A stretch of 11,744 nt of DNA, taken from assembly GCA_016213455.1 (NCBI GenBank), contig JACRAG010000128.1, positions 1 through 11,744 on the forward strand. Direction: 5' to 3'. The notes under the pieces are model-generated. The model had not been told where the DNA came from. It searched no databases and saw only the letters and a program-made list of their open reading frames with translations. Positions 1 to 11,744 of this stretch are shown here, in pieces (within the stretch, counting starts at the first letter, position 1; each line of letters opens with the position of its first letter). This DNA comes from Anaerolineae bacterium. GTDB lineage: Bacteria; Chloroflexota; Anaerolineae; Anaerolineales; Anaerolineaceae. A program made the position numbers and the translations under genes.

Positions 1-1182
1 ACCCACCGAGAAGCGAACCAGCCCGTCCGAAATGCCCATCGCCAGGCGCGTTTCCTTCGGCACCGCCGAGTGGGTCATGCTGGCGGGGTGGCAGATCAAC
101 GAGTCGGTGTTGCCGAGACTGACCGCCAGGGTGGAGACGCGCACGCCTTCCATCAGGCGTATCCCGGCTTGCAGCCCGCCTTTCAGCTCAAAGGAGACCA
201 TCCCGCCAAAGTCGTGCATCTGCGCGCGCGCCAGGGCGTGCGTGGGGTGACTTGCCAGCCCGGGGTAGTACACCGCGGCGACAGCCGGGTGCCCTTCCAG
301 GCGCTGCGCCACCGCCAGCGCATTGGCGCAGTGACGCTGCATGCGCAGCTCAAACGTCTTCAGGCCCAGGTTGGTCAGCCAGGCGTCGAAGGGGCTGGGG
401 CAGCCGCCGTAGATTTTGAGTGAAGTGAAGACCTGCTTGTTCACCCAATCCAGGTGCGGGCTGACCACCGCGCCGCCGATTACCACGCCGTGCCCAGCCA
501 GGTATTTGGTGGTGGCGTGCAGCACCCCATCCGCGCCCAGGCTGAGCGGGCGCTGGCAGTAGGGTGTGGCGAAAGTGTTGTCCACAAACAGCCAGGCGCC
601 AAAGCGGTGGGCAATTTCGGCGGCGGCGCGCAGATCCACCACCTGCAGGGTGGGGTTGATCGGCGTTTCGGCGTAAGCCAGCACGGCCTGCGGGTTGGCT
701 TCAAAGGCTGCCTGCCAGCCATCCGGCCCGGCGTCCTTGACCCACACCACGCGGATGCCGTAGCGTGGGGCCACATCCTGCAGGAAGTTGTAGGTCGCGC
801 CGTAGAGCGACTCCTGCGCGATGATGGTCTGCCCGGCTTGCACGCGCGCCAGCACTGCGCCGGTGATGGCAGCCATGCCGGAGGAAAACAGGCGCGCGGC
901 GGCGACCTGCTCCGGCGGGCGGGCGGGGTCGGCGCGCAGCAGGTCCAGCGCTTCCAGCGCAGCCAGCTTGGCGCTCACCTGGCGAAAGTTGGGGTTGTCG
1001 TAGCGGGTATAAATAAAACCGTCTTCCTCGCCGCGGAACATGGCGGCGCCAGTGTCCACGTCGGGAAAACGGAAGGTGGAGGTTTGATAGATGGGCGCGA
1101 TATGCGCGTTGCGCGGGTCAGCCTGTTCGCCGACGTGGTTGACCAGCGTGCCTAGTCCGCAGCGGGAGGGGATGGATGTCAT
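1..1182 (-). CDS. Cys/Met-metabolism PLP-dependent enzyme (cystathionine gamma-synthase / gamma-lyase family), 3' end cut off
   Basis: Reading from ATG at 1182 gives 394 codons with no stop before the window edge. The family is usually about 380-430 residues, so only a short C-terminal tail is missing. The fold-type I trans-sulfuration signature is clear: N-terminal APIYQTSTF, then YTRYDNPN (family YxRxxNPT), SSGMAAI, AETPINPT, DNTFATPY, and the PLP-lysine loop TTKYLAGHG with K226 as the Schiff-base lysine. SLGNTDSLICHPASMTHS is the usual C-terminal substrate loop. Family members act on cystathionine, O-acyl-homoserine or methionine in the cytoplasm; sequence alone does not choose among them. 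The GHG is followed by V-V-I instead of the more usual S/G-D. The start follows the rhodanese stop by 5 bases and has an AGGGGG Shine-Dalgarno inside that gene's end, so the two are co-transcribed. Family call very sure, substrate unknown. Confidence 0.93.
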   Translation of the reverse strand, partial: MTSIPSRCGLGTLVNHVGEQADPRNAHIAPIYQTSTFRFPDVDTGAAMFRGEEDGFIYTRYDNPNFRQVSAKLAALEALDLLRADPARPPEQVAAARLFSSGMAAITGAVLARVQAGQTIIAQESLYGATYNFLQDVAPRYGIRVVWVKDAGPDGWQAAFEANPQAVLAYAETPINPTLQVVDLRAAAEIAHRFGAWLFVDNTFATPYCQRPLSLGADGVLHATTKYLAGHGVVIGGAVVSPHLDWVNKQVFTSLKIYGGCPSPFDAWLTNLGLKTFELRMQRHCANALAVAQRLEGHPAVAAVYYPGLASHPTHALARAQMHDFGGMVSFELKGGLQAGIRLMEGVRVSTLAVSLGNTDSLICHPASMTHSAVPKETRLAMGISDGLVRFSVG

Positions 1183-1187
1183 GCCCC

Positions 1188-1643
1188 CTATTCTACCGGA
1201 TATCCGGCCGACTGCCAGGCTTGAATTCCGCCGTTGACGCTGGTGACCTGCGAATAACCGGCCTGCAGCAGAATGTCGCGCCCGGCGTCCGAGCGGTTGC
1301 CGGAGCGGCAGATGACCACCACCGGCTTGTCCGCCGGCACCTCGTTCACGCGGCTTTCCAGTTGATCCAGCGGGATGAGTGTCACGCCTGGCACATGCTG
1401 CGCGTCATACTCTTCCTGGGTGCGCACGTCCAGCAAAAAGGCGCCGTCCTGTACCAGTTGGTAGGCTTCGTCCACGTCGATCTCTGCCGGCAGCGCGGCA
1501 GGAGCGCCGGCTGCGGGTGCGCCGCTGCCCGGGTTGGACAGGACAGCGAAGGCTGCAATCAGAACCACCGCCAGGCCAAGGATGGCGATCAGCCAGGCGG
1601 GAAAGCGTTTTGCGCTCGGGGTGGTCGTTTTGGTTTTGCTCAT
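1188..1643 (-). CDS. Membrane-anchored single-domain rhodanese
   Basis: This 151-residue protein has a charged N-terminus, one hydrophobic segment at about residues 16-36, an Ala/Pro/Gly linker to about 52, and a rhodanese domain from about 55 to the end. Domain landmarks are LLDVRTQEEYDAQHVPG (70-86) and the active-site loop CRSGNRS starting at C112, the cysteine that would carry persulfide sulfur. The single anchor suggests the domain faces outside, with uncleaved anchoring; this is inferred. I chose ATG 1643 over an upstream in-frame ATG at 1700 because the hydrophobic segment then sits at the usual place and an AAGGA lies about 11 bases upstream. The 114-bp gap to nadE holds only a weak 5-bp hairpin (1702-1716), so linkage to nadE transcription is uncertain. 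The PLP enzyme follows 5 bases after the stop, suggesting a shared role in sulfur transfer. Confidence 0.9.
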   Translation of the reverse strand: MSKTKTTTPSAKRFPAWLIAILGLAVVLIAAFAVLSNPGSGAPAAGAPAALPAEIDVDEAYQLVQDGAFLLDVRTQEEYDAQHVPGVTLIPLDQLESRVNEVPADKPVVVICRSGNRSDAGRDILLQAGYSQVTSVNGGIQAWQSAGYPVE

Positions 1644-1757
1644 CAGGGTGTGTTTCCTTCCATGCTTAGGTTCTAAAGGTTTGGATTCACAGGCAGGCAA
1701 AAGGTTACTTCAACCTGCTTGCGAAAAAAGTGGAATCCACACCGTATTCCGACGGGT

Positions 1758-2588
1758 TCACGTGCCCCAATCGCGCAGGTACAGGAAGTCGTAGCCGATG
1801 GTGCGGTTGGTCAGCTTGGCGATGGGCGGCAGCACGCGCTTGAACTGGTTGCGGCGGATGCGTTCCACCACCGAGCGCACAAAGCCATCGGCAAAACCGG
1901 CCTCAATGCACTCCTCCGGGGTGTAGCGTTCGTCAATCAGCAGGTAGAGCAGCTTGTCCACCTCGGCGTAGGTATAACCCAGCTCGCCTTCGTCGGTCTG
2001 CCCCGACCACAGGTCCGCGGAGGGCGGCTTGTCGATGATCGCCGCCGGCACGCCCACCGCGCGCGATAGCTGGCGCACCTGGGTCTTGTACAGGTCGCCG
2101 ATCGGGTTGAGCGCGCAGGCCGAGTCGCCATACAGGGTGGAATAGCCCAGCAGGATTTCGGTTTTGTTGCCCGTGCCCACCGCCAGTCCTTTGAAGGCTG
2201 CGGTCTGGTCATACAACACGATCATGCGCATGCGCGCCATGATGTTACCCTTGCGCATGGCGTCCATGTCGGCGAAGTTGTTGATCAGCGGGTCAACCAT
2301 GGGGGTGATGTCCACGGTCATGCTCTGCACGCCCAGGTCGTCGATGACCATCTGCGCATGCTCCAGCGAGTCGGCTGAGGAGGTGCGGTAAGGCAGGCGG
2401 ATAGCCAGCACGTTCTGCGGGCCGAGCGCCTCGGCTGCCAGGTAGATTGCCAGGGCCGAGTCGATGCCGCCGGAGAGGTTGATCACCGCGCGGGTCAGGC
2501 CCGTGCGGGTGATCTCGCTGCGGATGAAGCCGGTCAGGATGCGTTGGGCCAGTTCGGTGTTGATGGTGAGATCCGGTGAAGCGTTCAC
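1758..2588 (-). CDS. nadE: NAD+ synthetase, ammonia-dependent type (synthetase subunit)
   Basis: This 276-residue cytoplasmic enzyme amidates deamido-NAD to NAD+ using ATP. The N-type ATP pyrophosphatase P-loop SGGIDSA is at residues 39-45, the GTGNKTE motif at 138-144, and KPPSADLWSGQTDE near 188-201, all diagnostic of NadE. Length fits the synthetase-only form, without the fused glutaminase domain. The start is GTG at 2588: no in-frame ATG fits, and GGGAGG lies 7 bases upstream inside the last codons of the preceding gene, whose TAA ends 2 bases before. Such spacing points to translational coupling and equal production with the preceding nitrilase-family gene, the likely glutaminase partner. 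The last residues are RDWGT. No strong terminator follows. Confidence 0.96.
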   Translation of the reverse strand: MNASPDLTINTELAQRILTGFIRSEITRTGLTRAVINLSGGIDSALAIYLAAEALGPQNVLAIRLPYRTSSADSLEHAQMVIDDLGVQSMTVDITPMVDPLINNFADMDAMRKGNIMARMRMIVLYDQTAAFKGLAVGTGNKTEILLGYSTLYGDSACALNPIGDLYKTQVRQLSRAVGVPAAIIDKPPSADLWSGQTDEGELGYTYAEVDKLLYLLIDERYTPEECIEAGFADGFVRSVVERIRRNQFKRVLPPIAKLTNRTIGYDFLYLRDWGT

Positions 2589-2590
2589 GG

Positions 2591-3460
2591 TTACCTCCCG
2601 GAAGAACGCGAGCGGTCGGAAAGGATGCGGCCCATCTCGCGCGAGACCAGCGCGGTGCGCTCGTCGCGCAGCAGGGGCAGGCGCGCGCGGGTGCGGTGCA
2701 GCTGGTTCAGGTCGAGCTGGACCAGGGTCAGGGCTTCTTCAAAGGCGGGGCCTTCGATGAGCTGGTTGCCATTGGGGTCATACACCGCCGCCGAACCCCA
2801 GAAGTTCAGCCCGTCTTCAAAACCCACCCGGTTGGTGTGGGCGACGAAACTGGTGTACAGGCTGGCGTAGGCGCGCAGAATGTGATTGACCCAGCGCGCC
2901 GAATCCAGGTCAGGCTTTTCGGAAAGCCCGCGCCCTGGCGAGGCGGATTGGAACAGGAACAGGTCGGCGCCGTCCAGCCAAAGCAGGTAGGAGGGGGAGG
3001 CGTGCCAGAAATCCTCGCAGATGAGCATGCCCACCCGCCCAAAGCGCGTGTCGAAGGCCTGTACCGAGTCGCCCCAGGCAAAGAAGCGTCCCTCGTCAAA
3101 CAGGCCGTAAGTGGGCAGATACACCTTGCGATGCACATGCAATACCTGCCCGCGCGAGAGGTAGGCCGAGGCGATATAAAAGCGGTTGCGCTCGTCTTCT
3201 TCCACAAAGCCGACCATTAAGTCCAGCTTCTGGCTGGCTTCCAGCAGCGGGCGGAAAACCGGGTCGTCATCGCGCGGGTGGCAGGCCACGGTGGGCACCA
3301 GGTCCTGCAGCACATAGCCGGTGAGCGAAAGCTCAGGGAAGATGAGCAAGTCGGCGCCGCGATCGCTGGCTTGCTGGATCAGGGCGAGATGTTTTTGCAG
3401 GTTCTTCTGCACATTTCCCAGCGTGGTGTTGATCTGCGCCAGGGCGAGGGTCATTTTCAT
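2591..3460 (-). CDS. Nitrilase-superfamily amidohydrolase, probable glutaminase subunit of NAD+ synthetase
   Basis: The 289-residue protein carries the complete carbon-nitrogen hydrolase triad: E43 in FPELSLTGY, K112 in HRKVYLPT and C148 in LICEDFWH. The LTGY after the Glu, the YLPTYGLFDEGR segment and the CEDFWH elbow resemble the glutaminase domain of glutamine-dependent NAD synthetases more than generic nitrilases. The gene directly precedes nadE with a 2-base gap, so I infer it releases ammonia from glutamine and feeds it to NadE, the two forming one enzyme from two chains. Its ATG overlaps the stop of the upstream Lgt-like gene (TGATG, one shared base), so it is probably translated by coupling. 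An alternative is an independent amidase, which the gene order makes less likely. Confidence 0.9.
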   Translation of the reverse strand: MKMTLALAQINTTLGNVQKNLQKHLALIQQASDRGADLLIFPELSLTGYVLQDLVPTVACHPRDDDPVFRPLLEASQKLDLMVGFVEEDERNRFYIASAYLSRGQVLHVHRKVYLPTYGLFDEGRFFAWGDSVQAFDTRFGRVGMLICEDFWHASPSYLLWLDGADLFLFQSASPGRGLSEKPDLDSARWVNHILRAYASLYTSFVAHTNRVGFEDGLNFWGSAAVYDPNGNQLIEGPAFEEALTLVQLDLNQLHRTRARLPLLRDERTALVSREMGRILSDRSRSSGR

Positions 3461-4179
3461 CAGGATTTCCCTTTCTCTTCCCGCCGGGCTTTAAAGGTCA
3501 GCGCGGCGAGTCCCCCGAAGAGGGGGATGAAGAGTGCGACGTAGGTCCAGCTCTCCAGGCGAAGCTGGTGCCAGATGGGCAGCGGATCGGCGCGCAGCAG
3601 TGAGGCGACCAGGCCGACCAGGGTCAACCAGCTGGCAGCCAGGCAAAACAACCAGCCGGAGGGACGCGGCAGCGGGGTGAGCCGCTCCATTAAGATATAG
3701 AAGATCACCAGCGCCGAGGCCGCGCCCAACTGGACGGGCACGCGCAGAGCCAGCGCACCGCTTTCATCCATTGCGGGCAGGCCCCACCAGGTGCCAGGCG
3801 GCAGCAGCGCGCCGTAAGCCACGCCGTTCAACCAGCAGCCCAGCCAGGCGCCCACCGCCATCGGCGGAATGAGCGGGTAGTACCAATCCGCCAGACGCAG
3901 CGGGTTGACCCGCAAGATCAGCGCCGCCAGGAGGATGCCCAGCAGCCCACCCGTCAGCGCACCCGGGGCAGACAGACCACCCAGCCAGATCTGCAGGCTT
4001 TCCAGCGGATGGGCTGAAAAGTACGCCCAGTTGGCCAGCGCATAGCCGGCGCGCGCGCCCAGCAGTGCGCAGAATAAAACCAACAAGGCCCCATCCAACC
4101 ACTGCCCCGAACGCTGGCGGCTGATGCGGTACAGTCCCAACGTGGCCCCCAGGCCAATGGCGATTGCGTATTCGTTCAA
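3460..4179 (-). CDS. Lgt-like polytopic membrane protein lacking the family's key residues
   Basis: With a TTG start at 4179 the protein has 239 residues and about seven hydrophobic segments. It aligns by eye with prolipoprotein diacylglyceryl transferase (Lgt): GARAGY (41-46) for GARLGY, the hydrophobic stretch to GGLSAPGALTGG (67-78) for GGxSFHGGLxGG, WLNGVAYG (116-123) for FINGELYG, and RVPVQL (146-151) for the RxPxQLY segment. However, the conserved His is Pro72, and the Arg, Asn and Glu of the GRxGNFxNGE motif are Trp112, Cys115 and Val120. So it may not transfer diacylglyceryl, or does another job. The TTG is chosen because GGGGGAG lies 7 bases upstream and a -10 element lies about 32 bases upstream; longer in-frame starts would lie in or before that promoter. 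The stop overlaps the next ATG by one base. Confidence 0.72.
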   Translation of the reverse strand: MNEYAIAIGLGATLGLYRISRQRSGQWLDGALLVLFCALLGARAGYALANWAYFSAHPLESLQIWLGGLSAPGALTGGLLGILLAALILRVNPLRLADWYYPLIPPMAVGAWLGCWLNGVAYGALLPPGTWWGLPAMDESGALALRVPVQLGAASALVIFYILMERLTPLPRPSGWLFCLAASWLTLVGLVASLLRADPLPIWHQLRLESWTYVALFIPLFGGLAALTFKARREEKGKS

Positions 4180-4211
4180 GACGGCGCTCCCCCGAAGTTG
4201 ATCTTGGCTGA

Positions 4212-4240
4212 ATGATACCATAAGGATCTGGCCGGAAAAC
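4212..4240 (-). promoter_or_regulatory. Probable extended -10 promoter of the Lgt-like/nadE run
   Basis: On the minus strand TGGTATCAT gives an extended -10 (hexamer TATCAT at 4217-4212). The -35 region 17 bases further up is poor (GTTTTC). The predicted transcript would start near 4205, leaving a leader of about 26 bases with the GGGGGAG ribosome site before the TTG start at 4179. The fit between promoter, leader and start is the main support. Confidence 0.45.
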
Positions 4241-4457
4241 CCTTTTGTCTTTCCCTGGTCCCGCTCAAAACATGCCAGGAAGCAACTGAACCCTGTCGTT
4301 GCCAACGAGGCACTGCGCGCGAAGCAAGCTTGCCTTGAATCTGGGCTATAAAGTGAGTTTGCAGTGGTTCTCGCAACGACACCCCCCCACATGTCATCGC
4401 GTCATTTCGGGTAGATTGGGTGAAGGGCGGTCAAAACCTGATGAATTTTCGAAATGG

Positions 4458-4504
4458 GCCCGCCCGGAACCCAACATCCATCCCAGGAGTGTTGGGATGC
4501 GGGC
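4458..4504. repeat. Imperfect long hairpin
   Basis: Outer arms GCCCGC (4458-4463) and GCGGGC (4499-4504) and inner arms CCCAACA (4470-4476) and TGTTGGG (4490-4496) are each perfectly complementary, separated by small internal loops. No T-run follows on either strand, so it is not an obvious terminator. It is probably another palindromic element of this repeat-rich stretch. Confidence 0.5.
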
Positions 4505-4583
4505 GCGCCAACGGCGCAATTGTCCGAGACTCGACGCGCCCTCCTCCCAACCTACAGGAAAAGAGCACTTCTCCGCGTGCTCT

Positions 4584-4617
4584 GGTGCGTTGGCCCAAAG
4601 CGGCCAACACACCCTAC
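4584..4617. repeat. Palindromic dispersed repeat, copy A (GGTGCGTTGGCC type)
   Basis: GGTGCGTTGGCC (4584-4595), loop CAAAGC, and GGCCAACACACC (4602-4613) form a 12-bp stem with one C-A mismatch, followed by CTAC. The loop and both arms recur at 4766-4799 with the mismatch absent, so this is a diverged copy of the same element. Repeats ending in GTAGGGTGCG / CGCACCCTAC are known as dispersed palindromes in many bacterial genomes. Confidence 0.75.
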
Positions 4618-4651
4618 GCAGAAAACCCCGATGTTAACCACCCACCCCGCA

Positions 4652-4693
4652 TGTCATCGCGAGCGAGCCCTCTGGGTGAGCATGGCGATCTCC
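4652..4693. repeat. TGTCATCGCGAGCGAG-type dispersed repeat
   Basis: The segment starts TGTCATCGCGAGCGAGCC and ends GGCGATCTCC. ATCGC (4656-4660) and GCGAT (4685-4689) are complementary. This matches the plan of a widespread intergenic repeat of the form TGTCATTGCGAG...GAAGCAATCTCC, with the internal T/A pair changed to C/G on both arms, a compensatory pattern. The identification is from memory of that family. Confidence 0.6.
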
Positions 4694-4716
4694 CGCTGTG
4701 CAACCGTTCGGCTCCG

Positions 4717-4799
4717 GTAGGGTGCGTTGCTTCAACGCACCATCTTTTCATGCCGGAAATAAGATGGTGCGTTGGCCCAAAGCGGCCAACGCACCCTAC
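4717..4799. repeat. 83-bp nested palindromic element with 13-bp perfect terminal inverted repeats
   Basis: GTAGGGTGCGTTG (4717-4729) and CAACGCACCCTAC (4787-4799) are exact reverse complements at the ends. Inside, CAACGCACCATCTT (4733-4746) and AAGATGGTGCGTTG (4761-4774) are also exact reverse complements. The same bases can instead form two side-by-side hairpins: 4721-4741 (9-bp stem, loop CTT) and 4766-4795 (12-bp stem, loop CAAAGC). It has no room for a gene, so it is a REP/MITE-like non-autonomous element. Confidence 0.8.
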
Positions 4800-4890
4800 G
4801 TAGAAAAATCCCACGGCACGCCCCCCACCTCACCGGTCCCCGCGAGGCCAGGGCCGGGTCGGATGTGTTGGGTACGGGTTAAAGCAAACA

Positions 4891-4934
4891 ACGAAAGGGT
4901 GAGGAGTGCTCGAAAGCACTCCTCACCCTTTCGT
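4891..4934 (-). terminator. rplS terminator hairpin
   Basis: A perfect 20-bp stem (4891-4910 with 4915-4934) closes a CGAA tetraloop, 27 bases after the rplS stop. On the minus strand the stem is followed by TGTTTGCTTT, a moderate T-rich tail; on the plus strand no T-rich tail follows. It therefore terminates rplS transcription and shields the following repeat region. Confidence 0.85.
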
Positions 4935-4961
4935 ACAGGGCGATTCAATCAGCCGGTCAGT

Positions 4962-5309
4962 TTAGAAACGCTGCTTGAGGCGGGCGCTCTTGCCGGTGCG
5001 GCCGCGCAGGTAGAACAGGCGCGCGCGGCGAACCTTGCTGTGTCGCTCCACCACCACCTTGTCGATGCGCGGGGAGTAGGTGAGGAAGGTACGCTCAACG
5101 CCAACGCCGTTGGTCGCGATGCGGCGAACCGTGAAGGAGGAACCAGCGGCAGCGTTCTTGGTAAACAGAACGGTGCCCTTGAACTCCTGAATGCGCTCGC
5201 GGGTGCCTTCTTTGATTTTTACGTGCACACTGACCACATCGCCGGGGCGCAGGGCCGGAATTTTTTCGTTCGGCTGCGATTCAATGGCCTTCAAGATTTG
5301 TTCACTCAT
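4962..5309 (-). CDS. rplS: 50S ribosomal protein L19
   Basis: The 115-residue protein matches L19 over its whole length. It has the N-terminal helix, then [19 protein letters not shown], the [11 protein letters not shown] segment, [37 protein letters not shown] and a [13 protein letters not shown] end. L19 lies at the 30S-50S interface. The ATG at 5309 has AAGGA 10 bases upstream and gives the standard N-terminus. It stands alone here with its own promoter and terminator; the frequent neighbours trmD and rimM are not in this window. Confidence 0.98.
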
Positions 5310-5365
5310 AGCTTCACAATCCTTACGCTTAATTTTTACTTCAGCGCCCGTAAGCGCGAGGCAGG

Positions 5366-5394
5366 ATTATAACACGGGTACTTTGAATCCGCAA
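5366..5394 (-). promoter_or_regulatory. rplS promoter (TTGCGG-17-TATAAT)
   Basis: On the minus strand a consensus TATAAT (5371-5366) is preceded at exactly 17 bases by TTGCGG (5394-5389). The predicted start near 5359 gives a leader of about 50 bases that is GC-rich at first, then contains AAAAATTAAG and the AAGGA ribosome site. Strong -10 and ideal spacing fit a ribosomal protein gene. Confidence 0.8.
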
Positions 5395-5439
5395 GCTCGA
5401 TTCGTGTAGTGTTTTCTGGCATGTTCAACAAAATGTCAG

Positions 5440-5485
5440 ACAATTCTATCACCTTGACCCCTCCGGCGGAAGGGTGGCGAATTGT
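5440..5485 (-). terminator. Possible terminator or spacer hairpin after the lipoprotein gene
   Basis: ACAATTC (5440-5446) pairs with GAATTGT (5479-5485), and inside it CCCCTCCGGCGGAAGGG (5458-5474) folds into a 7-bp stem with one G-T pair. It lies 40-85 bases after the lipoprotein stop and before the rplS promoter. There is no T-run, so factor-independent termination is doubtful. Confidence 0.35.
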
Positions 5486-5524
5486 TGTCCAGCGTTCTTG
5501 AACCATTGTTCCGCTGGGATGCCC

Positions 5525-6970
5525 CTACGGGTTGGGCGGGATGACCAGGCGTTGACCCACGCGCAGCGCGTCGCCGGGCTGCAGCCCATTGGCGGCGGCG
5601 ATCTGCTCGGGCGGGGTCTTCCAGCGCGCGGCGATCAGCGGCAGGCTGTCGCCGGGGCGCACGTCAATTTCCGCCGCCTGCCCGCTGATGTCTTTGGCGC
5701 GCCAGGCCCAACGGAAGACCTCGAACCCGCCGTCGCCGGTGCGCCCGTTCAGGCGGTCTTTGGCCCATTCGTTGCGATAAAAGCCCGCGCCGGGGTCATT
5801 GGCCGCATACAGCAACACGCGCTGGATGGTGGTGAGTTCAAACGGCTTGACCTTGACCACGTTGGTGACCGAAAAGCGATTGCCGTCGGCGTCGCAGTCG
5901 GTGACCACCAGCAGGTGGTCGAAGCCATCCTGGCGCGAGTAGGTGTACACCATGTCGCCGGCCTCCAGCGGGTACTGCGAGAAATCCACGCTGCCGGTCG
6001 GCTCGGAGAAGCGCCGCACCACGTAGGTCTCGGGATCAAACAGCGACCAGGGCCGTCCGTTTTCGCTGGGCTTGGGCAGCCAGAAGGTCTTGGGCGCATT
6101 GACCCACGCGCCGTAGCCGGGCGGGAAGGCCCCCGCCGCGTTGGTGATGGCCCAGGTGAGCGGGCCGCACATCAACCCCGGCGCTTCGGTGCGCCCATCC
6201 AGCCAGCCGATGCCGTGTGCCACGGCGCTGCACTGCTCGGTGGTGCTGGCGATGAACGGCTCCGCCGCGGCGGCAAAATCGGGCTGGCGCCAATCGACCT
6301 GCTCCAGCTCGCCCACGGGCAGGTCCGGAGCCAGGCCCGCCTGCACCATCCAGCGGCAGGGTGACAGGCGTAATGCCGGCAGGATGCGCGTCTCACCCTC
6401 CGGCACGCCTCCAGCCTGAAAGAAAGCGCTCACATAGGGCGCCCAGGCGCTTTCCAGCATATCCGGGGCCAGGCGCACCGCCAGGATGTGCTCGCCAAAC
6501 TGCTCGTCGCTGCGCAGCCAGGCGGCGAAGCCCGCCACATGCAGGGCGTTGAGCATATCCTGGATGCGGTAGCGGTTCTGCACCCCGCCGGTGGAAAAAG
6601 CCAGCACGTCCTGCCCGGTCCACACCAGCGCGCCGGTCAGGTTGTTGCGCGCCTGGTTGAGCTGGCGGCGCGCCAGGGGCGTCTCCAGGGTCAGCAGGCT
6701 TTCGGCGTATGCCAGGCGGTCGGCGGCGCTTTGATTGAGCGATGCCGGCTGGCAGCCGGCTGGTTCGGCGTAGCGCGGCGGTTCCAGGGGAGTGGGCGTG
6801 GGGGTGGCGGCGGCAGCCGGCGCTTCAGGGGTGAGGGTGGGCGGCGGGGTAAAGGTGGCGCGTGCGCGGGTGGGCGCGCTGGTGACGGCAGCAGGCGGCG
6901 TTGGAAGCGGCATGCAGCCGGTCAGATTCACCCAAACCACCACCACCAGGGCAAGCAACGCGCGTTTCAT
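5525..6970 (-). CDS. Secreted LysM lipoprotein with a cysteine-hydrolase-like core
   Basis: The 481-residue protein starts with a lipoprotein signal: MKRALL, a hydrophobic core and the lipobox LTGC with C19. A Thr/Pro/Ala linker (about 23-65) follows, with a TPTPTP run. Residues about 75-430 form the main domain. It holds a Cys-led helix MCGPLTWAI (C268) and, downstream, GDMVYTY (338-344) and FDHLLVVTDCD with H352, an order and spacing that recall NlpC/P60- or CHAP-like papain-fold hydrolases. That relation is inferred, and I cannot name the family. Residues about 435-478 are a LysM peptidoglycan-binding domain (DVRPGDSLPLIAARW ... LRVGQRLVIP). A wall-remodelling or glycan-bound enzyme outside the membrane is likely. 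The start is ATG 6970, just after a -10 box; no clear Shine-Dalgarno is visible. Confidence 0.85.
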   Translation of the reverse strand: MKRALLALVVVVWVNLTGCMPLPTPPAAVTSAPTRARATFTPPPTLTPEAPAAAATPTPTPLEPPRYAEPAGCQPASLNQSAADRLAYAESLLTLETPLARRQLNQARNNLTGALVWTGQDVLAFSTGGVQNRYRIQDMLNALHVAGFAAWLRSDEQFGEHILAVRLAPDMLESAWAPYVSAFFQAGGVPEGETRILPALRLSPCRWMVQAGLAPDLPVGELEQVDWRQPDFAAAAEPFIASTTEQCSAVAHGIGWLDGRTEAPGLMCGPLTWAITNAAGAFPPGYGAWVNAPKTFWLPKPSENGRPWSLFDPETYVVRRFSEPTGSVDFSQYPLEAGDMVYTYSRQDGFDHLLVVTDCDADGNRFSVTNVVKVKPFELTTIQRVLLYAANDPGAGFYRNEWAKDRLNGRTGDGGFEVFRWAWRAKDISGQAAEIDVRPGDSLPLIAARWKTPPEQIAAANGLQPGDALRVGQRLVIPPNP

Positions 6971-6978
6971 CGCCGCCC

Positions 6979-6984
6979 ATTATA
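6979..6984 (-). promoter_or_regulatory. -10 element of the LysM lipoprotein gene
   Basis: A consensus TATAAT on the minus strand ends 8 bases before the ATG at 6970, so the transcript would begin only a couple of bases before the start codon, which also lacks a Shine-Dalgarno site. The -35 at 17 bases (TGCCCG) is poor. A near-leaderless mRNA is inferred. Confidence 0.5.
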
Positions 6985-7034
6985 ACGGCAAAGCCGCTGA
7001 CCGGGCACGGCTGCGCGCGCAGCTGCCCCAACTT

Positions 7035-7043
7035 TGCTATACT
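7035..7043 (+). promoter_or_regulatory. Extended -10 promoter of the DUF1905 gene (leaderless)
   Basis: TGCTATACT fits an extended -10 (TGnTATAAT type). Only six bases (TACCCC) separate it from the ATG at 7050, so the predicted transcription start coincides with the A of the start codon, and there is no room for a ribosome site. It faces away from the lipoprotein promoter about 50 bases to the left. Confidence 0.6.
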
Positions 7044-7049
7044 TACCCC

Positions 7050-7343
7050 ATGAACTTCACCTTTGAGGGCGAAATATTCTACTGGCGTGGCCCGGCTCCC
7101 TACCTGTTCGTCGCCGTTCCGGACGAGCCGAGCCAGGAGATCAAAGCCGTCGCCGCCGTGGTCAGCTACGGTTGGGGCGTCATCCCCGTGCGCGTGCGTA
7201 TTGGGCGCACCGAGTGGAAGACCTCGCTGTTCCCCAAGCAGGGGCGCTACCTGGTGCCCATCCGGGTCAGCGTGCAGGAGGCTGAAGCCATTGGCGTGGG
7301 CGACGAGGTGGAGATCCATCTCGAGGTGACCCGGGGGCGTTGA
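7050..7343 (+). CDS. DUF1905-family small protein
   Basis: The 97-residue protein matches the DUF1905 plan from end to end: F-E-G-E-I-F-Y-W-R-G start, FVAVPDEPSQEI, a G-V-I-P-V-R-V-R-I-G strand pair, EWKTSLFPKQGRYLVPI, then VQEAEAIGVGDEVEIHLEV. The family is a small beta-barrel of unknown biochemical role. The ATG at 7050 is chosen over a longer open frame because the extension crosses the divergent promoter region and an extended -10 ends 6 bases before the ATG. Base use matches the GC-rich left part, so it is probably the last native gene before the accessory block. Its stop lies inside the loop of the S1 hairpin. Confidence 0.85.
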   Translation: MNFTFEGEIFYWRGPAPYLFVAVPDEPSQEIKAVAAVVSYGWGVIPVRVRIGRTEWKTSLFPKQGRYLVPIRVSVQEAEAIGVGDEVEIHLEVTRGR

Positions 7344-7393
7344 AAATCGCCCCCGCCCGCGTTTACTCGCCGGATGGACCGGATTTAAAATGG
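7313..7393 (+). repeat. Intergenic unit S1: gene 3' end, hairpin, promoter-like box
   Basis: S1 spans the last codons of the DUF1905 gene and what follows. GGGGGCG (7333-7339) and CGCCCCC (7348-7354) form a perfect 7-bp hairpin whose 8-base loop contains the TGA stop. It is followed by GCGTTTACT (7359-7367), readable as -35 TTTACT, and after 18 bases TAAAAT (7386-7391). The whole 81 bases align with S2 (8470-8549): 45 of 63 positions match without gaps from 7331 on, and GATCC..CTCGAGGT is shared before one indel. Confidence 0.7.
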
Positions 7394-7598
7394 TGAAGAG
7401 AAAATTACCAGGGCTTGCGTATGGGGGATAAAACGCGATTTAATGGTATTGGATATATGGTTGACCGGCCAATTATTCACACCTGCCGGGGTAGGAATAC
7501 GGAAAATTTCGACGTATGATGAGGCTGAATCGTTAATGGTTGGGCGATGACTTTGCAACGGATTTGACCTCTGACACAACCGAAACTCGAGGTGTTGC
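7394..7598 (+). other. AT-rich leader before the CPBP gene, no gene seen
   Basis: These 205 bases separate the S1 promoter-like box from the ATG at 7599. No frame with a ribosome site and recognisable product is present, apart from a 13-codon frame opening at 7390. Base composition switches from G/C-rich to A/T-rich here. If S1 drives the CPBP gene, the leader would be about 200 bases, unusually long compared with S2. Confidence 0.4.
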
Positions 7599-8399
7599 AT
7601 GGAAGCGTTACGCCAATTAGCAACCAATCTTCCGATCGTTTTTGGATTGCTTACAACGATCGCCGTTTTTGTCTTCTCAATCGTTTCGTTCGTGCTGGGT
7701 ATGGCTTTGCCCGCTGGCAGCTACAAACCATACATCGGCCAGATACTGGGAAGGCTGCTGACAACCCTGCTCTTCGTTTTCATTCTTTCACGCTTTGGCT
7801 GGTTATCAGCGGTCGGGTTTACCCGGTTTGCTGAATGGCAATCATGGTTGCCGATCCTCCTGTTGTTGGTTTATACCATGGTTGCAGCCGTCTATGCCTT
7901 TTTCGGTGACTTTAAATTGGAACTCTCAAAGCCTAAACTGGTTGGTGTGGTGGCTTTGGATCAAATGACCATCGGCTTGTTGGAGGAAATCGCGTATCGC
8001 GGGATCATCCTGTATACCTTTGTTCGGATTTGGGGAGACTCAAATTGGGGTTTGGTGGGGAGCGTCCTGCTCTCCGCTGCGCTTTTTGGTGCATCGCATC
8101 TGGTATGGGTGCTATTTGGAAAACCGCCGCTTCAAAGTATGTTGATGAGTCTGAGTGCTTTCGAAGCAGGCATATACTACGCAGTCTTTGTGCTGGCAAG
8201 TGGGAGTATTTGGCCTGCGGTTCTCTTTCATGGGTTGGTGAATGCGGTGGTGAATGTCAAGTTGATTGATCAACCCGATTACAAAGAGACGGTATCGTCA
8301 GGCGTACGAATGGCTCTGCTGGGTATTCCCGTGGTTGCGTATGGCGTGTATCTTCTTTGGAACATGCCTCCACTTGCTACAATTCCGAATGTCCCATAA
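7599..8399 (+). CDS. CPBP-family intramembrane metalloprotease (Abi/CAAX-like)
   Basis: The 266-residue polytopic membrane protein has about seven hydrophobic segments. The three CPBP motifs appear in order: EEIAYRG (E129, E130, R134), LFGASH (F163, H167) and HGLVNA (H211, N215). These supply the glutamate and histidines of this intramembrane protease family (Rce1-like). Substrates of bacterial members are mostly unknown; proposed roles include bacteriocin self-immunity and peptide maturation. GAGGT sits 5 bases before the ATG. It stands alone between S1 and S2 and is much richer in A/T than the genes to the left, which suggests acquisition. No toxin or bacteriocin precursor is recognisable beside it. 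Confidence 0.88.
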   Translation: MEALRQLATNLPIVFGLLTTIAVFVFSIVSFVLGMALPAGSYKPYIGQILGRLLTTLLFVFILSRFGWLSAVGFTRFAEWQSWLPILLLLVYTMVAAVYAFFGDFKLELSKPKLVGVVALDQMTIGLLEEIAYRGIILYTFVRIWGDSNWGLVGSVLLSAALFGASHLVWVLFGKPPLQSMLMSLSAFEAGIYYAVFVLASGSIWPAVLFHGLVNAVVNVKLIDQPDYKETVSSGVRMALLGIPVVAYGVYLLWNMPPLATIPNVP

Positions 8400-8469
8400 G
8401 AAATGAGCAGAATGCAGGCAACACTAGACGCTGGGGAGTGCGATCCCACAGTATTCCCACCCGTGAAGT

Positions 8470-8549
8470 GATCCGGCTCGAGGTAGCCGGAGGCGTAAAA
8501 TATTGCCCCCGTCCGCGTTGGCCTGCCAGGTGGGTCGGGTCTATACTGG
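8470..8549 (+). repeat. Intergenic unit S2, second copy of S1
   Basis: S2 repeats S1 with about 70 % identity, including a diverged copy of the DUF1905 3' coding end: in one frame it reads VIRLEVAGG where the gene reads VEIHLEVTRG. The hairpin remains with one A-C mismatch (8489-8494 with 8505-8510). The box GCGTTGGCC (8515-8523) gives -35 TTGGCC and, after 18 bases, -10 TATACT (8542-8547), the best promoter of the set. Transcription would start near 8554, 18 bases before the next gene's ATG. A 6-bp hairpin, CCGGCT/AGCCGG (8473-8490), also overlaps the unit. Confidence 0.7.
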
Positions 8550-8571
8550 GATGAGATGATAGGGTATTTGT

Positions 8572-9039
8572 ATGCAGGCTAAAAAAGAGAATCAGCAAGC
8601 ACCTGTTTGCCCGTCTTGTGGTCAGCCTGTGAAACCAGGCCTGTTACAATTTAAGCTGAACGGCAAAGCCAAAATACTGGTGTTTGTGTTCTTACTTGGG
8701 TACATCACCTTGAGCATATTCCTGCTGCTTCTGAGTGTGCCGCCTGAGTTGAGAAGGGGATGCGGCGGCTTTGATCGGCGCTGGGCGATCCCTTTCACCA
8801 CGCCCAATCCAGAGCGATGCCGTGATACCCAGTTTGATATCATGATGAAGCCGCTGTATCAGGCGCCGGCTTTTCAGGTGTTTGTGGGAAGCGGAGTAGC
8901 TGTTGCTGTTCTTCTTTTCTATTGGGATGGGTTGCAAATGATGTATCAAAATTGGCAAACCAGGCGAGGACCACAAAACCAAAGGCGTGAGAAAATTTAC
9001 CGGTATGCGTGTCGTCGTTGCGGAAAACAATGGGATTGA
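8572..9039 (+). CDS. Two-TM protein with a CxxC at each end (possible split zinc ribbon)
   Basis: I do not recognise a family for this 155-residue protein. It begins with a zinc-ribbon knuckle CPSCGQP (C13, C16), has hydrophobic segments at about 34-55 and 102-118, and ends with a second knuckle YACRRCGKQWD (C147, C150). With two membrane passes both ends lie on the same side, so the two CxxC pairs could build one four-cysteine zinc site. The loop between the passes holds C64 and C83, which could form a disulfide outside. ATAGGG lies 7 bases before the ATG and the S2 promoter 25-30 bases upstream. A role in membrane sensing or assembly is possible but unproven. Confidence 0.7.
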   Translation: MQAKKENQQAPVCPSCGQPVKPGLLQFKLNGKAKILVFVFLLGYITLSIFLLLLSVPPELRRGCGGFDRRWAIPFTTPNPERCRDTQFDIMMKPLYQAPAFQVFVGSGVAVAVLLFYWDGLQMMYQNWQTRRGPQNQRREKIYRYACRRCGKQWD

Positions 9040-9088
9040 CGCAGGAAACAACCGTTGAACCGCACTTTGGATCAGAGCACTTTGTTTG

Positions 9089-9192
9089 ATTCAACGCCGC
9101 GTGCACGCGTTGACTCACCGGACGGGCCTGTTTAAAGGAAAGCGCTGCCTCGCGGCAATATTGCCGATGATGGTGAGCCGGCAGAAGGATTG
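9089..9192 (+). repeat. Intergenic unit S3 with an 86-bp segment repeated at S4
   Basis: TCAACGC (9091-9097) and GCGTTGA (9107-9113) form a perfect 7-bp hairpin overlapping the box GCGTTGACT (9107-9115). -35 TTGACT is followed after 17 bases by TAAAGG (9133-9138), or at 15 bases by TTTAAA. The segment 9107-9192 recurs at 10139-10225 with five substitutions and one inserted base, all in its first third; the final 56 bases (9137-9192) are identical. That part contains the palindrome GGCAATATTGCC. It ends 24 bases before the hydrolase ATG. Confidence 0.75.
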
Positions 9193-9216
9193 CGTAAAAA
9201 GATTGTAGGATAACTT

Positions 9217-10095
9217 ATGGAATTGTTTCATCCTTTCCGGTCTGAGTTAGCCAAAAAAGAATATTTAACATTCTATGACCAACGAGCATTGGGCTGGAAT
9301 GTGCCATCAGAAACAAAAATGGTTGACACTTCTTTTGGTCAAACCTTTGTGCGGATTAGCGGTCTGAATAACACTTCTCCACTTGTTCTATTGCCAGCCA
9401 GTGTCTTCAATTCGTTGATGTGGATTCCGAACATAGCGGACTTATCCCAAAAATATCGAACCTATGCCATTGATAATATTTACGATTGTGGTCGCAGTAT
9501 TTACACACAAACACTTTCAAGCCCGGAAGATCTGGTGGGCTGGTTAGATGAATTGTTTACCGCACTAGAACTTGATGACAGAATTAATTTGATGGGACTT
9601 TCATACGGTAGTTGGCTGGCTCACCAATACGCTCTTCGATTCCCAAAAAGGTTGAGAAAATTAGTGCTTTTGGCACACCCCACGATAGTCCCGATGAATC
9701 CGACCTTTATACTTCGCCTTATGTTATCCTTTGTCTCCCCTCGCTTTTTCAGGAATTTCGTCTATTGGCTATTTCTGGACACAGCTAGATATGAGCATTC
9801 CAAAAGTGTGGTTGAAAGTGTTTATGAAGACATGCGACTTGCAGGAAAGTGCTTTAAGCCAAAGGCGATTATCAATCCAACGGCAATAAAAGATAGTGAG
9901 ATAAGCAACTTTCAACTCCCCACATTATTTTTAGTGGGCGAAAACGAAAAAACTTTCTCGCCACAGAAAGCCATTCAACGTTTAAACAAAATTGCGCCTC
10001 AAATTAAGACAAAAATGATTCCGCAGGCAGGTCACGATCTTAATTTTGCACAGGCAAACCTGGTCAACCGTGAGGTGCTTGAATTCCTGGAATGA
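9217..10095 (+). CDS. Alpha/beta-hydrolase fold protein
   Basis: The 292-residue protein has the ordered landmarks of the fold: oxyanion-hole strand LVLLPAS (56-62), YAIDNIYDCGRS (83-94), nucleophile elbow GLSYGS with S129, a cap region at about 155-230 rich in Phe and Leu, the acid strand TLFLVGENEKTFSP (236-249) and AGHDLNF with H273. At the usual catalytic Asp position it has Glu (E244, or E242), a permitted but less common acid. The substrate cannot be told; esterase or lyase-like activity on small molecules fits. AGGA lies 6 bases before the ATG. Codon use is strongly A/T-rich (AAA, AAT, ATT), the most foreign-looking gene of the window. S3 lies before it and S4 after it. Confidence 0.88.
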   Translation: MELFHPFRSELAKKEYLTFYDQRALGWNVPSETKMVDTSFGQTFVRISGLNNTSPLVLLPASVFNSLMWIPNIADLSQKYRTYAIDNIYDCGRSIYTQTLSSPEDLVGWLDELFTALELDDRINLMGLSYGSWLAHQYALRFPKRLRKLVLLAHPTIVPMNPTFILRLMLSFVSPRFFRNFVYWLFLDTARYEHSKSVVESVYEDMRLAGKCFKPKAIINPTAIKDSEISNFQLPTLFLVGENEKTFSPQKAIQRLNKIAPQIKTKMIPQAGHDLNFAQANLVNREVLEFLE

Positions 10096-10103
10096 TCAGG
10101 TTT

Positions 10104-10225
10104 GCAAAATGCACCCAGCACCGGTTGCATTGGACTTTGCGTTGACCTGCCGGACGGGGCTGCTTAAAAGGAAAGCGCTGCCTCGCGGCAATATTGCCGA
10201 TGATGGTGAGCCGGCAGAAGGATTG
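10104..10225 (+). repeat. Intergenic unit S4
   Basis: GCAAAATGCA (10104-10113) pairs with TGCAT (10126-10130) and TTTGC (10136-10140), an interrupted hairpin. The box GCGTTGACC (10139-10147) follows, then after 17 bases TAAAAG (10165-10170), then the block identical with S3 (10170-10225). The segment 10111-10140 also resembles 11614-11643 (23 of 30 positions), so the piece just after a stop codon recurs at the end of the methyltransferase gene. Confidence 0.7.
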
Positions 10226-10281
10226 TGGGGCGCTTGAACCTGGATGAAACGACGTTCAACTCGCAAGACCCGTCCATTGTG
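10226..10281 (+). other. Short spacer between S4 and the tandem promoter repeat
   Basis: These 56 bases hold no recognisable gene or motif. Confidence 0.4.
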
Positions 10282-10351
10282 AAAATGATGGCTGCTCCGG
10301 CAGTTGACTATAATGAAGGCTCATAAGATTGCAAACGTCATAAACCGATGA

Positions 10352-10372
10352 AACGGGTACTATGTACCCGTT
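10352..10372 (+). promoter_or_regulatory. Hairpin at the end of the first leader copy
   Basis: AACGGGTAC (10352-10360) and GTACCCGTT (10364-10372) form a perfect 9-bp stem with a TAT loop, followed by CAATATAAAAATG. It would end or stall transcripts from the first promoter copy, or pair with the GGGTAC of the second copy. The tail is not a clean T-run, so terminator activity is uncertain. Confidence 0.5.
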
Positions 10373-10406
10373 CAATATAAAAATGATGGCTGCTCCGGCA
10401 ATTGAC

Positions 10407-10412
10407 TATAAT
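10407..10412 (+). promoter_or_regulatory. -10 element (TATAAT) for the VOC/methyltransferase pair
   Basis: A consensus TATAAT in the second leader copy (twin at 10309-10314). The -35 region at 17 bases (TGATGG) is poor, so an activator or another sigma factor may be needed. The leader to the ATG at 10472 would be about 53 bases. Confidence 0.5.
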
Positions 10413-10471
10413 GAAGGCTCATAAGATTGCAAACGTCAGAAACCGATGAAACGGGTACAAAGGAGAAAACA

Positions 10472-10870
10472 ATGACTCTGGGCGCGACTTTGTATGTTAA
10501 AAACAGTGTCGAGGCGGTTGAATTCTATCTCGATGCCTTTCATATGACACTGGGCTACAACGTGAAAAACAGTGACGGTTCATTCCTTCACGCAGAACTG
10601 ATGAAGGGAGACGTAACCGGCTTTGCGGTTAGCGAAAATCAGGATGAAGAGATCGTTCGATTGATGTTAGCGGCGAAACAACCGACCATGAGCCTCGGCA
10701 TTAATCTCGACAACAACGATGAGCTCCAATATGCGTATCAAACGCTCATCGAGGGCGGGCACATTTTGAGGGAACTGGGTTCGCTACCCTGGAGCCCATC
10801 TTCCGCTGATGTTGTCGACAAGTATGGCGTGTGTTGGTATATCTATGTTTCACAGCATCGACCAGACTGA
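10472..10870 (+). CDS. VOC-superfamily (glyoxalase/PhnB-like) protein
   Basis: The 132-residue protein has the PhnB-type VOC layout: a first module beginning TLYVKNSVEAVEFYLDAFHM, a GSFLHAELMKGD strand, and a second module SLGINLDNNDELQYAYQTLIEGGHILREL ending WSPSSADVVDKYGVCWYI, where PhnB-like proteins have DxFGxxW. VOC members bind metal and act as lyases, dioxygenases or drug-binding proteins; the residues here do not settle which. The ATG at 10472 is chosen over an earlier TTG because AAAGGAGA precedes it at a good distance. A short upstream frame starting at 10447 ends with a TGA overlapping this ATG. The methyltransferase gene follows after 21 bases, so the two form an operon. Confidence 0.85.
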   Translation: MTLGATLYVKNSVEAVEFYLDAFHMTLGYNVKNSDGSFLHAELMKGDVTGFAVSENQDEEIVRLMLAAKQPTMSLGINLDNNDELQYAYQTLIEGGHILRELGSLPWSPSSADVVDKYGVCWYIYVSQHRPD

Positions 10871-10891
10871 ACCGCGAAGTTGGAAAATCTT

Positions 10892-11605
10892 ATGTTCGCT
10901 CGATCAGCCAACTATTACGACGTCATCTACGAGACAATGGGCAAAAACTATGAACTCGAATCCAGTCGCCTTTTGTCTTTCGTAAAAAAATATGGAAGTG
11001 GTTCCTGCAAAACCCTGCTCGATGTTGCTTGCGGGACGGGCGAACACCTGAAATATCTCCAAAAGGATTTTTCGGTTGAAGGGCTTGACCTCGACCAGGA
11101 AATTCTAAAGATCGTTGCGCAAAAACTACCCCATATTCCGGTCCACCACGCCAATATGCTTGATTTCACTTTGGCGCGCAAATATGATGTGGTTGCTTGC
11201 CTGTTCAGTTCAATCGGCTATGCCGTTACCAGGGAAAACCTCTTCCTGGCGATACGAAACATGCAAAAGCACACCTCCGCAGGCGGCTTATTATTCGTGG
11301 AGCCCTGGCTCAGTCCAGAGCAATTTTTTCCAGGCACCGTACATGCCGTGTTCGTCAATCAACCAAACCTAAAAATAGCGCGGATGAATGTGAGCGAAGT
11401 AATAGACTCCAGGATATCCGTGTTAAATTTTCAATATTTGGTTGCTACACCAGACGGCGTTCAGCACTTTTCTGAACGTCATGAATTGGGATTATTCACC
11501 CGGGAAGAATATTTGTCGGCTTTTCGAGAATGCGGGATGAAAGTATTGGTGGATGAAGAAGGCCTGGATGGACGCGGGCTTTATATCGGCATCAACCCTT
11601 CTTGA
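10892..11605 (+). CDS. Class I SAM methyltransferase, DesVI/TylM1-like (aminosugar N-dimethyltransferase family)
   Basis: The 237-residue protein has SAM motif I LLDVACGTGEH (42-52), the acidic strand end GLDLD (64-68), ANMLDF (87-92) and YDVVACLFSSIGY (98-110). The later segments LLFVEPWLSPEQF, VQHFSERHELGLFTREEY and GLDGRGLYIG follow the order I know from dTDP-3-amino-sugar N,N-dimethyltransferases such as DesVI, so an N-methyl transfer to a small amine substrate is the best guess. No sugar pathway genes are visible here, so the real substrate could differ. The ATG at 10892 (GGA 8 bases before) is preferred over a TTG at 10880, and gives the N-terminus MFARSANYYD. It ends just before the box resembling the S4 piece. 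Confidence 0.85.
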   Translation: MFARSANYYDVIYETMGKNYELESSRLLSFVKKYGSGSCKTLLDVACGTGEHLKYLQKDFSVEGLDLDQEILKIVAQKLPHIPVHHANMLDFTLARKYDVVACLFSSIGYAVTRENLFLAIRNMQKHTSAGGLLFVEPWLSPEQFFPGTVHAVFVNQPNLKIARMNVSEVIDSRISVLNFQYLVATPDGVQHFSERHELGLFTREEYLSAFRECGMKVLVDEEGLDGRGLYIGINPS

Positions 11606-11744
11606 CCATAACCGCACCCAACACCGCGCGCAGCGGACATTGCCCCGCTACGCAGGGATTGTAAACCGTTAGGGGCTCGGTCTATTCCAGAATAGCAAAA
11701 AGTGCAATATGATGAAATGAGTTTCGAAGCAACATCACGATGAT
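11606..11744 (+). other. Non-coding end of window with an S4-like box
   Basis: The segment 11614-11643 matches 10111-10140 at 23 of 30 positions and starts 9 bases after the methyltransferase stop. AGCGG (11632-11636) and CCGCT (11645-11649) can pair. Further on is CCGTTAGGGGC and a short CTATT/AATAG palindrome. No S1-S4 type GCGTTGAC box is present. Any gene beginning here is cut off, and I see no convincing start before the edge. Confidence 0.4.

Follow-up and report, generated by a model that had tools for sequence, protein, structure and literature searches.

Promoter-like border repeats in an array of co-oriented, compositionally foreign genes of an Anaerolineae bacterium

Introduction

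In chromosomal integrons the gene pool is shared, and the border repeat is species-specific. Integrative elements at the 3' ends of genes have att sites that run from the gene end into the intergenic region. Putative mobile promoters, near-identical before non-homologous genes, were reportedly described by Matus-Garcia in 2012. The idea of a mobile promoter is a described one, for which a portion of PMC8049555 cites Matus-Garcia 2012 and van Passel 2014. According to parts of the respective sources, integron cassettes are usually promoterless and dependent on the platform promoter (PMC11014356), cassettes with promoters of their own have been reported (PMC8618304, PMC11014356), and in attI-type (delta-attI) cassettes a gene stands between two copies of the platform-side site, which take the place of attC (PMC12901181). 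Here we analyze the whole of contig C577 (JACRAG010000128.1; 11744 bases), called the window below, from an Anaerolineae bacterium whose assembly (G000) comprises 3.03 Mb in 594 contigs and is 61.6% complete. The second part of the window is an array of co-oriented genes at whose borders a promoter-like unit recurs.

We favor, with a probability of roughly one half, the reading that this is a cassette-like array of foreign genes, in which each border carries a duplicated promoter and which has grown by insertion with duplication.

Border units S1 to S4 and Ca to Cf

The initial annotation had placed a shared box at 7359, 8515, 9107 and 10139, and all four boxes were confirmed on the plus strand; the units to which they belong, S1 to S4, are listed in Table 1. 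A search of the same genome with unit S3 led to six further units, Ca to Cf, all on one strand of a second contig (C89). In pairwise alignments with 200 nucleotides (nt) on each side, for which 300 shuffled pairs gave a maximum score of 29, S3 and S4 are identical at 81/87 positions (score 141) with unalike upstream flanks, and S1 and S2 at 65/89 positions (73%; score 52).

The unit consensus is a sigma-70-type TTGAC(T/C)-N15-18-TATACT-like sequence in a GC-rich, partly hairpin-forming surround, with a -35/-10 spacer of 17-18 at the seven units listed. Five of the six C89 units have TTGACT-N17/18-TATACT or TATAAT, and the -35/-10 pairs of S1 and S2 match at 9 of 12 positions (in S2, TTGGCC at 8518-8523 and TATACT at 8542-8547). 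Promoter-like sites are more frequent than in shuffled sequence, both in window positions 7000-11744 (12 vs 5.4) and in locus L009 (15 vs 6.9). Near-identical predicted promoters, at 83-93% identity, stand ahead of unrelated genes in S3/S4 and in Cd/Ce/Cf; for the ten units together, identity averages only 64% per column. Judged by their sequences, the ten units are related copies of a sigma-70-type promoter, and they are probably active as promoters.

A hairpin common to the four window borders, as first described, was not borne out: the stems of S1 and S2 are related, that of S3 is different, and S4 is without a clear counterpart. The stem CCCCCGCCCG/CGGGCGGGGG is strong in Cc, Cd and Cf and weaker in S1, S2 and Ce; it was not seen in Ca, Cb and S4, and the hairpin of S3 is another one. 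We rejected the hairpin as a conserved element, as there is no covariation over the ten units and 263/500 shuffles pair equally well, and found the conserved columns of the ten-unit alignment to be those of the promoter core. A terminator-promoter fusion was also rejected (terminator-like sites, 6 vs 5.3 shuffled in window positions 7000-11744 and 7 vs 13.6 in L009); only Cd and Ce among the units are listed as terminator-like in the direction of the array. Since the stem does not covary, the conserved columns are those of the promoter and terminators are not in excess, the unit is read as a promoter first. MerR-type operators have a spacer of 19-20 base pairs with an inverted repeat, and a MerR-type operator-promoter, a candidate raised by a G002 sequence, was rejected because the unit spacers of 17-18 are too short.

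Confinement of the unit to two arrays

The core CGCGTTGACTCGCCGG occurs, at no more than one mismatch, six times in the genome: C89 has four of the sites and the window has two. The reversed control gave none; at up to three mismatches there are 70 sites against 47 for the control, and among 16 listed sites outside the arrays one, on contig C339, has by eye a promoter-like -10 nearby. The pattern TTGACT-N16-18-TATAMTG has six sites in the 3.03 Mb, five of them on C89. A profile of the ten units (R1) gives these 28-46 bits, 13.4 bits to the next site of G000, and at best 19.2 bits (E value 0.004) in 146 relatives. This search used stricter filters and scored 37 first-look candidates per genome (981 were found in G000); because the profile was trained on the ten units, only the absence of other matches is informative. 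As nothing else scored above chance in G000 or the 146 relatives, the unit is not a genome-wide native promoter. Occurrence throughout the genome before native genes, which the initial annotation held would reduce the unit to a promoter or terminator repeat, is thus not what we observe: copies lie on 2 of 594 contigs, and no other site of the genome exceeds the score of 13.4 bits. Within what is assembled, we conclude that the border repeat is real, promoter-like and restricted to the arrays.

A related pattern, GTTGACTC-N14-17-TATAMTG, is most frequent in G000 (four occurrences), and G003, of the same genus, has three on three different contigs; in fourteen loci of this type read by eye, various genes follow the site. 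Counts of such patterns across the order indicate that the unit consensus belongs to the lineage, yet in G000 it is the repeat of two arrays. A wide search for the unit gave seven singletons in GTDB contigs, from seven organisms, in a set from which near relatives of the window were possibly left out, and a search of viral contigs gave no matches.

Compositionally foreign modules behind a native-looking stretch

Positions 1-7343 hold ordinary high-GC genes ahead of the array, with Pfam names for a Cys/Met metabolism enzyme, LGT, ribosomal protein L19, a LysM protein and DUF1905, and with a rhodanese, an NAD synthase and a nitrilase recognized by eye. The GC (guanine plus cytosine) content of the genes falls from 64.6% to 49.1% directly behind DUF1905, at S1, and stays below 50% throughout the rest of the window. 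The surroundings of DUF1905 in G002, G157 and G114 contain none of the other 12 window proteins tested.

The genes between the boxes are those first described, a CPBP protease, a CxxC membrane protein and an alpha/beta hydrolase. The second of these belongs to a rare family, with five homologous proteins found, the first probably the protein itself and the other four 51-73% identical and 152-156 amino acids long. On C89 the genes behind the units are unrelated, and encode a DUF2268 peptidase, a SnoaL-like protein, an isochorismatase, two Imm5-like proteins, a DUF6144 protein, a nucleoside hydrolase, a GNAT protein, a PEMT-like methyltransferase, an S-adenosylmethionine (SAM) methyltransferase and one unknown protein. 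As we delimited them, all 16 module genes of both arrays run in the direction of their units; their GC content ranges from 36.5 to 67.2%. There is one gene per unit at four of the six C89 units and at three of the four window units.

Of 147 genomes (G000 included), 22 have matches to the DNA of the C89 array and 5 to that of the window array. Since two candidates were scored per genome, counts of module homologs are lower bounds. Homologs from both arrays stand together in two of 14 loci compared, which belong to two other genera: within 3.5 kb in G135 (glyoxalase-like protein, 72% identity; methyltransferase, 65%; Imm5a, 73%), and about 1.3 kb apart in G143 (nucleoside hydrolase, 60%; a broken hydrolase, 67-72%). 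In the arrays of G135 and G059, homologs of the glyoxalase-like protein have 72% and 79% identity.

The G135 locus (L130) has border repeats of its own, one terminator-like (2139-2196, 4996-5055 and 10895-10943) and one promoter-like (2377 and 8809), the latter with AGAATATATGTTCT, which we take to be LexA-like.

Signs of how the arrays may have grown

Neighboring units are the most alike (S1-S2, S3-S4, Ca-Cb and Cd-Ce-Cf), with permutation p values for the summed similarity of adjacent pairs, at 200-nt flanks, of 0.012 within arrays and 0.0006 over all units. The repeat shared by S1 and S2 starts at 7313, 31 nt inside the DUF1905 gene (end 7343), and runs into the intergenic region, and a degraded version of this gene end recurs in S2, which lies behind the CPBP gene. 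Both observations are as expected if insertion duplicates the border. A 44-nt piece between Ca and its gene resembles, at 84% identity, an internal stretch of an Imm5-like gene from the same array, and is perhaps the trace of an earlier occupant. As neighbors are most alike, S1 and S2 include the 3' end of DUF1905 and homologs of the modules are combined differently in other genera, the unit likely has a role in recombination.

The DUF35 gene end in relatives

The arrays of G135 and G059 stand behind a DUF35 gene whose 3' end is repeated. Of 51 DUF35 loci sampled (L192-L242) two were too short and 49 were counted; the list favors higher identity to the G059 protein, and the family name was given by eye. 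The 3' coding end of the gene is repeated within 9.5 kb downstream in 22/49 loci, against 8/271 control open reading frames (ORFs) of the same loci. With intergenic-only repeats included the figures are 24/49 and 25/271, and an earlier test on mixed loci gave 8/10 vs 10/225. Twelve loci, the first on the list, were already known when the test was designed, and 6 of them have a coding repeat; the 37 loci that were fetched for the test and were long enough include 16 with one. About a dozen of the 49 come from genomes met earlier for modules or integrase pieces (G002, G003, G006, G053, G060, G065, G067, G068, G084, G092, G142 and G146). L184-L191, picked for fragments or integrase pieces, lie outside the 49, and in total twelve loci chosen for fragments, IntI or modules were excluded from the count.

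In 16 of the 22 repeat-bearing loci, one copy or more begins 23-47 nt ahead of the end of the gene. Several loci hold 2-4 copies; two of four loci read in detail (L221 and L224) have single genes between copies that are spaced 0.9-1.4 kb apart. The arm GCG(G/A)ACCRRGTCG stands directly before a DUF35-like end in 12 of its 14 matches in the loci scanned; these lie in 9 loci, several of the 12 behind CCGTTAG- or CCATTAG-like ends. The loci of relatives on which these observations of DUF35-like genes were made are L107, L130, L181, L184-L186 and L191-L242.

The DUF35 3' end has the appearance of a hot spot for insertion throughout the family, in which single genes lie between the copies. The geometry of S1/S2 at DUF1905 is the same as that of the DUF35 repeats, and the sequences are not evidently related. 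By analogy, the DUF35 pattern would raise the likelihood that in the window, too, insertion took place at a gene end and with duplication.

Other features of the window and of C89

Table 1. Features of the window, with positions counted from its first base
Feature	Position	Strand	Description
DUF1905 gene	7050..7343	+	Pfam PF08922, 3.3e-24; 64.6% GC; last native-looking gene
Unit S1	7313..7401	+	DUF1905 3' end, GC-rich stem, predicted -35 TTTACT 7362-7367 and -10 TAAAAT 7386-7391
Module 1, CPBP (Rce1-like) intramembrane protease	7599..8399	+	PF02517, 3.9e-14; 49.1% GC
Unit S2	8470..8556	+	Diverged S1 copy including degraded DUF1905 3' end copy
Module 2, CxxC membrane protein, 155 amino acids	8572..9039	+	No Pfam or NCBIfam match; 49.6% GC
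Unit S3	9107..9192	+	Predicted promoter TTGACT..TTTAAA and leader of about 55 nt
Module 3, alpha/beta hydrolase	9217..10095	+	PF00561, 1.6e-16; 41.4% GC
Unit S4	10139..10225	+	Predicted promoter TTGACC..TTAAAA and leader
Tandem element of about 98 nt, two copies	10268-10360, 10366-10458	+	94% identical, inverted-repeat ends
Module 4a, glyoxalase/3-dmu-9_3-mt-like protein	10472..10870	+	PF06983, 1.3e-5; 48.6% GC
Module 4b, SAM-dependent methyltransferase	10892..11605	+	PF13649, 6.2e-12; about 46% GC; start taken by eye as first ATG of the ORF
attC-like site	11606..11674	+	CCATAAC...GTTAGGG directly after methyltransferase stop codon

The element of about 98 nt, whose tandem pair precedes the glyoxalase-like gene, has the ends GTACCCGTT/AACGGGTAC, and a further copy with 76% identity lies on contig C177 (L180 4910-5011) behind what is, by eye, a URO-D-like gene. 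The end of the window (11667-11742) is 78% identical to the leader of a gene in G067 (L178, about 1500-1576) that is DUF1801-like by eye; from this resemblance the next gene is probably DUF1801-like, and the leader may be a conserved RNA. In the native stretch, short repeats around GTGCGTTG...CCAACGCACC were seen by eye in a long intergenic region (4565-4625 and 4718-4800). An Rfam scan of the window and L009 gave only one match above the gathering threshold, a c-di-GMP-II-GAG riboswitch (L009 10278-10376, 46.8 bits) before a phosphodiesterase/pyrophosphatase-like gene at one end of the C89 array. A tRNA that could serve as insertion target was not found in the array loci scanned, L009 and L010.

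Relation to integrons

It is an unlikely explanation of the locus that it is a chromosomal integron or an integrase-less cassette cluster, whose cassettes carry promoters by chance, whose S units are cassette starts behind degenerate attC sites and whose IntI has been lost or left unassembled. In favor of this explanation, IntI is above the cut-off in 4/147 genomes of the family. In G144 an integrase gene lies 75 nt behind a DUF35 gene, convergent with it (L105 8785-10253), and is followed by cassettes with attC sites (11300-11427, 13016-13075 and 14579-14671); G036 has the same DUF35-IntI order, again convergent, with an interrupted IntI (L107 8067-9527). The module genes, moreover, are of kinds that we take to be frequent in cassettes. 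Against this, a search of the 61.6% complete G000 with TIGR02249 gave no IntI over the cut-off of 265 bits, the best match having 45.9 bits (6.9e-12).

The units themselves do not read as attC sites, for which we took an R'' arm (RYYYAAC) pairing with R' (GTTRRRY) and a length of about 55-140 nt as the mark. None of the ten boxes fits GTTRRRY; a 7/7 R''/R' arm pair, present in S4, was found in 1/10 units, compared with 6/361 control GTT positions; and the stem lacks covariation. One G144 attC ends in GTTAGCC, departing from GTTRRRY at the same position as the S boxes, so that the C which these have for the third purine counts, taken alone, only weakly against the integron explanation. The similarity of S3/S4 and of Ca/Cb begins no more than 2 nt from G^TT, as would suit that explanation. 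A strict attC scan gave no site in either array and only one in the G144 control; a looser scan (score of at least 15.5) gave three in the window, S4 among them, vs 0.7 in shuffled sequence, a weak excess, and none on C89 vs 1.1. Both scans are crude; in the looser one the true G144 sites, three in number, took ranks one, two and four in a list with many false hits.

One integron-like feature stands at the end of the array, in the site that follows the methyltransferase gene (Table 1). It fits attC by sequence, place and RNA-parameter fold, and its inner part GACATTGCCCCGCTACGC resembles GACATTACTCCACTACGC of a G144 attC; with DNA parameters the fold is unexceptional (z=-0.30, 65/200 shuffles as good). 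Among 2643 ORF ends, a set that includes overlapping frames and one locus repeating the window, there are 6 distinct sites of this kind, this one included; the test misses all three G144 sites, which are too far from the stop codon, have ATT for GTT, or have C as third purine. A plasmid search with the site returned 20 records with short chance-level matches only. On the strength of this site, one or more of the modules may be integron cassettes.

Discussion

If the favored reading holds, the window would contain the terminal part of an island in the chromosome, made up of co-oriented modules gained by horizontal transfer, each transcribed from its own copy of a border repeat with a sigma-70-type promoter as its core. 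Where a border has the GC-rich stem, this may weakly insulate a module from the gene upstream. A module entering at a border would leave a copy of the border on each side, and the exchange could be brought about by a recombinase that acts in trans or by homologous recombination of one border copy with another. The initial annotation had proposed a cassette array whose repeat is both recombination site and promoter of the next gene; the co-oriented, unrelated and compositionally foreign genes and the promoter-like, confined repeat support that proposal in part, and an attC identity of the repeat is not supported.

Several observations weigh against the favored reading. The resemblance of neighboring units could also be explained by plain tandem duplication or gene conversion, and its significance depends on the flanks taken, with within-array p values of 0.012, 0.011, 0.037 (downstream only), 0.087 (upstream only) and 0.016 over five flank settings. 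The breakpoints of the repeat vary between unit pairs in pairwise alignment, and the -10 elements of S3 and S4, by eye TTTAAA- and TTAAAA-like, are imperfect. Some units head several genes, namely two C89 units (three or four genes) and S4 (two). The confinement of the unit was established in an assembly that is 61.6% complete, with 37/981 G000 candidates scored by the profile, and the GTTGACTC-N14-17-TATAMTG pattern is found in 39/400 genomes of the order, mostly once.

A more far-reaching version is possible, and we hold it only tentatively: a cassette system without attC, in which the promoter-bearing border repeat is the recombination site, either attI-like or a patch of homology, so that a captured gene is duplicated in and switched on, the window being one case of a lineage-wide building of arrays at particular gene 3' ends. 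The 3' end of an anchor gene (DUF1905 here, DUF35 in many relatives) would then be copied together with the modules.

About as improbable as the integron explanation is a mobile promoter, a short non-coding element copied before genes that were already present and did not move. Related promoters do precede non-homologous genes here; the copies, however, are not dispersed and remain in two arrays of foreign composition on 2 of 594 contigs, their breakpoints vary, and S1 and S2 carry the 3'-end sequence of a gene. By far the least probable explanation is that the units are the usual strong promoters of the lineage, with a resemblance due to convergence and plain tandem duplication: relatives do have GTTGACTCGC...CTATACTG promoters, such as those at the three GTTGACTC matches in G003, and the Cd/Ce and S3/S4 similarities are long enough for simple duplicates, but the consensus is nearly exclusive to the arrays in its own genome and the identity extends beyond the hexamers.

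Were the reading of a cassette-like array with duplicated promoters true, the expression of a module at any place in the array would be accounted for by a border that brings along a strong promoter and is duplicated when a gene is inserted. The DUF35 gene end provides a hot spot that can be tested throughout one bacterial family. Two genomes have integron integrases next to it, and it could reveal the relation of chromosomal integrons to integrase-less arrays.

A literature search, limited to one library, found no match for the exact arrangement, and the described systems each share a part of it. Like the putative mobile promoters of which part of PMC8049555 gives an account, several of the units are near-identical predicted promoters before non-homologous genes; unlike them, the units are clustered in arrays of acquired genes and include gene-end sequence at S1/S2. 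The att sites of integrative elements have a counterpart in the S1/S2 repeat, which begins inside the 3' end of DUF1905, whereas S1 and S2 enclose only some 1.16 kb, with no recombinase gene, and are 73% identical to each other. As in delta-attI cassettes, a gene lies between border copies, although neither attI nor IntI is known here, and the sites of those cassettes are reported, in the part of PMC12901181 concerned, to keep the GTTRRRY core, unlike the present units. In contrast to integrons, the repeat described here is a promoter core without demonstrable R and L boxes, neighboring border copies are the most alike, the assembly has no IntI over the cut-off and there is one attC-like site only. 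Nevertheless, without claiming membership, we regard integrons as functionally the nearest system: as in a sedentary chromosomal integron, the modules are co-oriented, foreign and mostly of a single gene, the repeat is species-specific, and the gene pool extends across genera.

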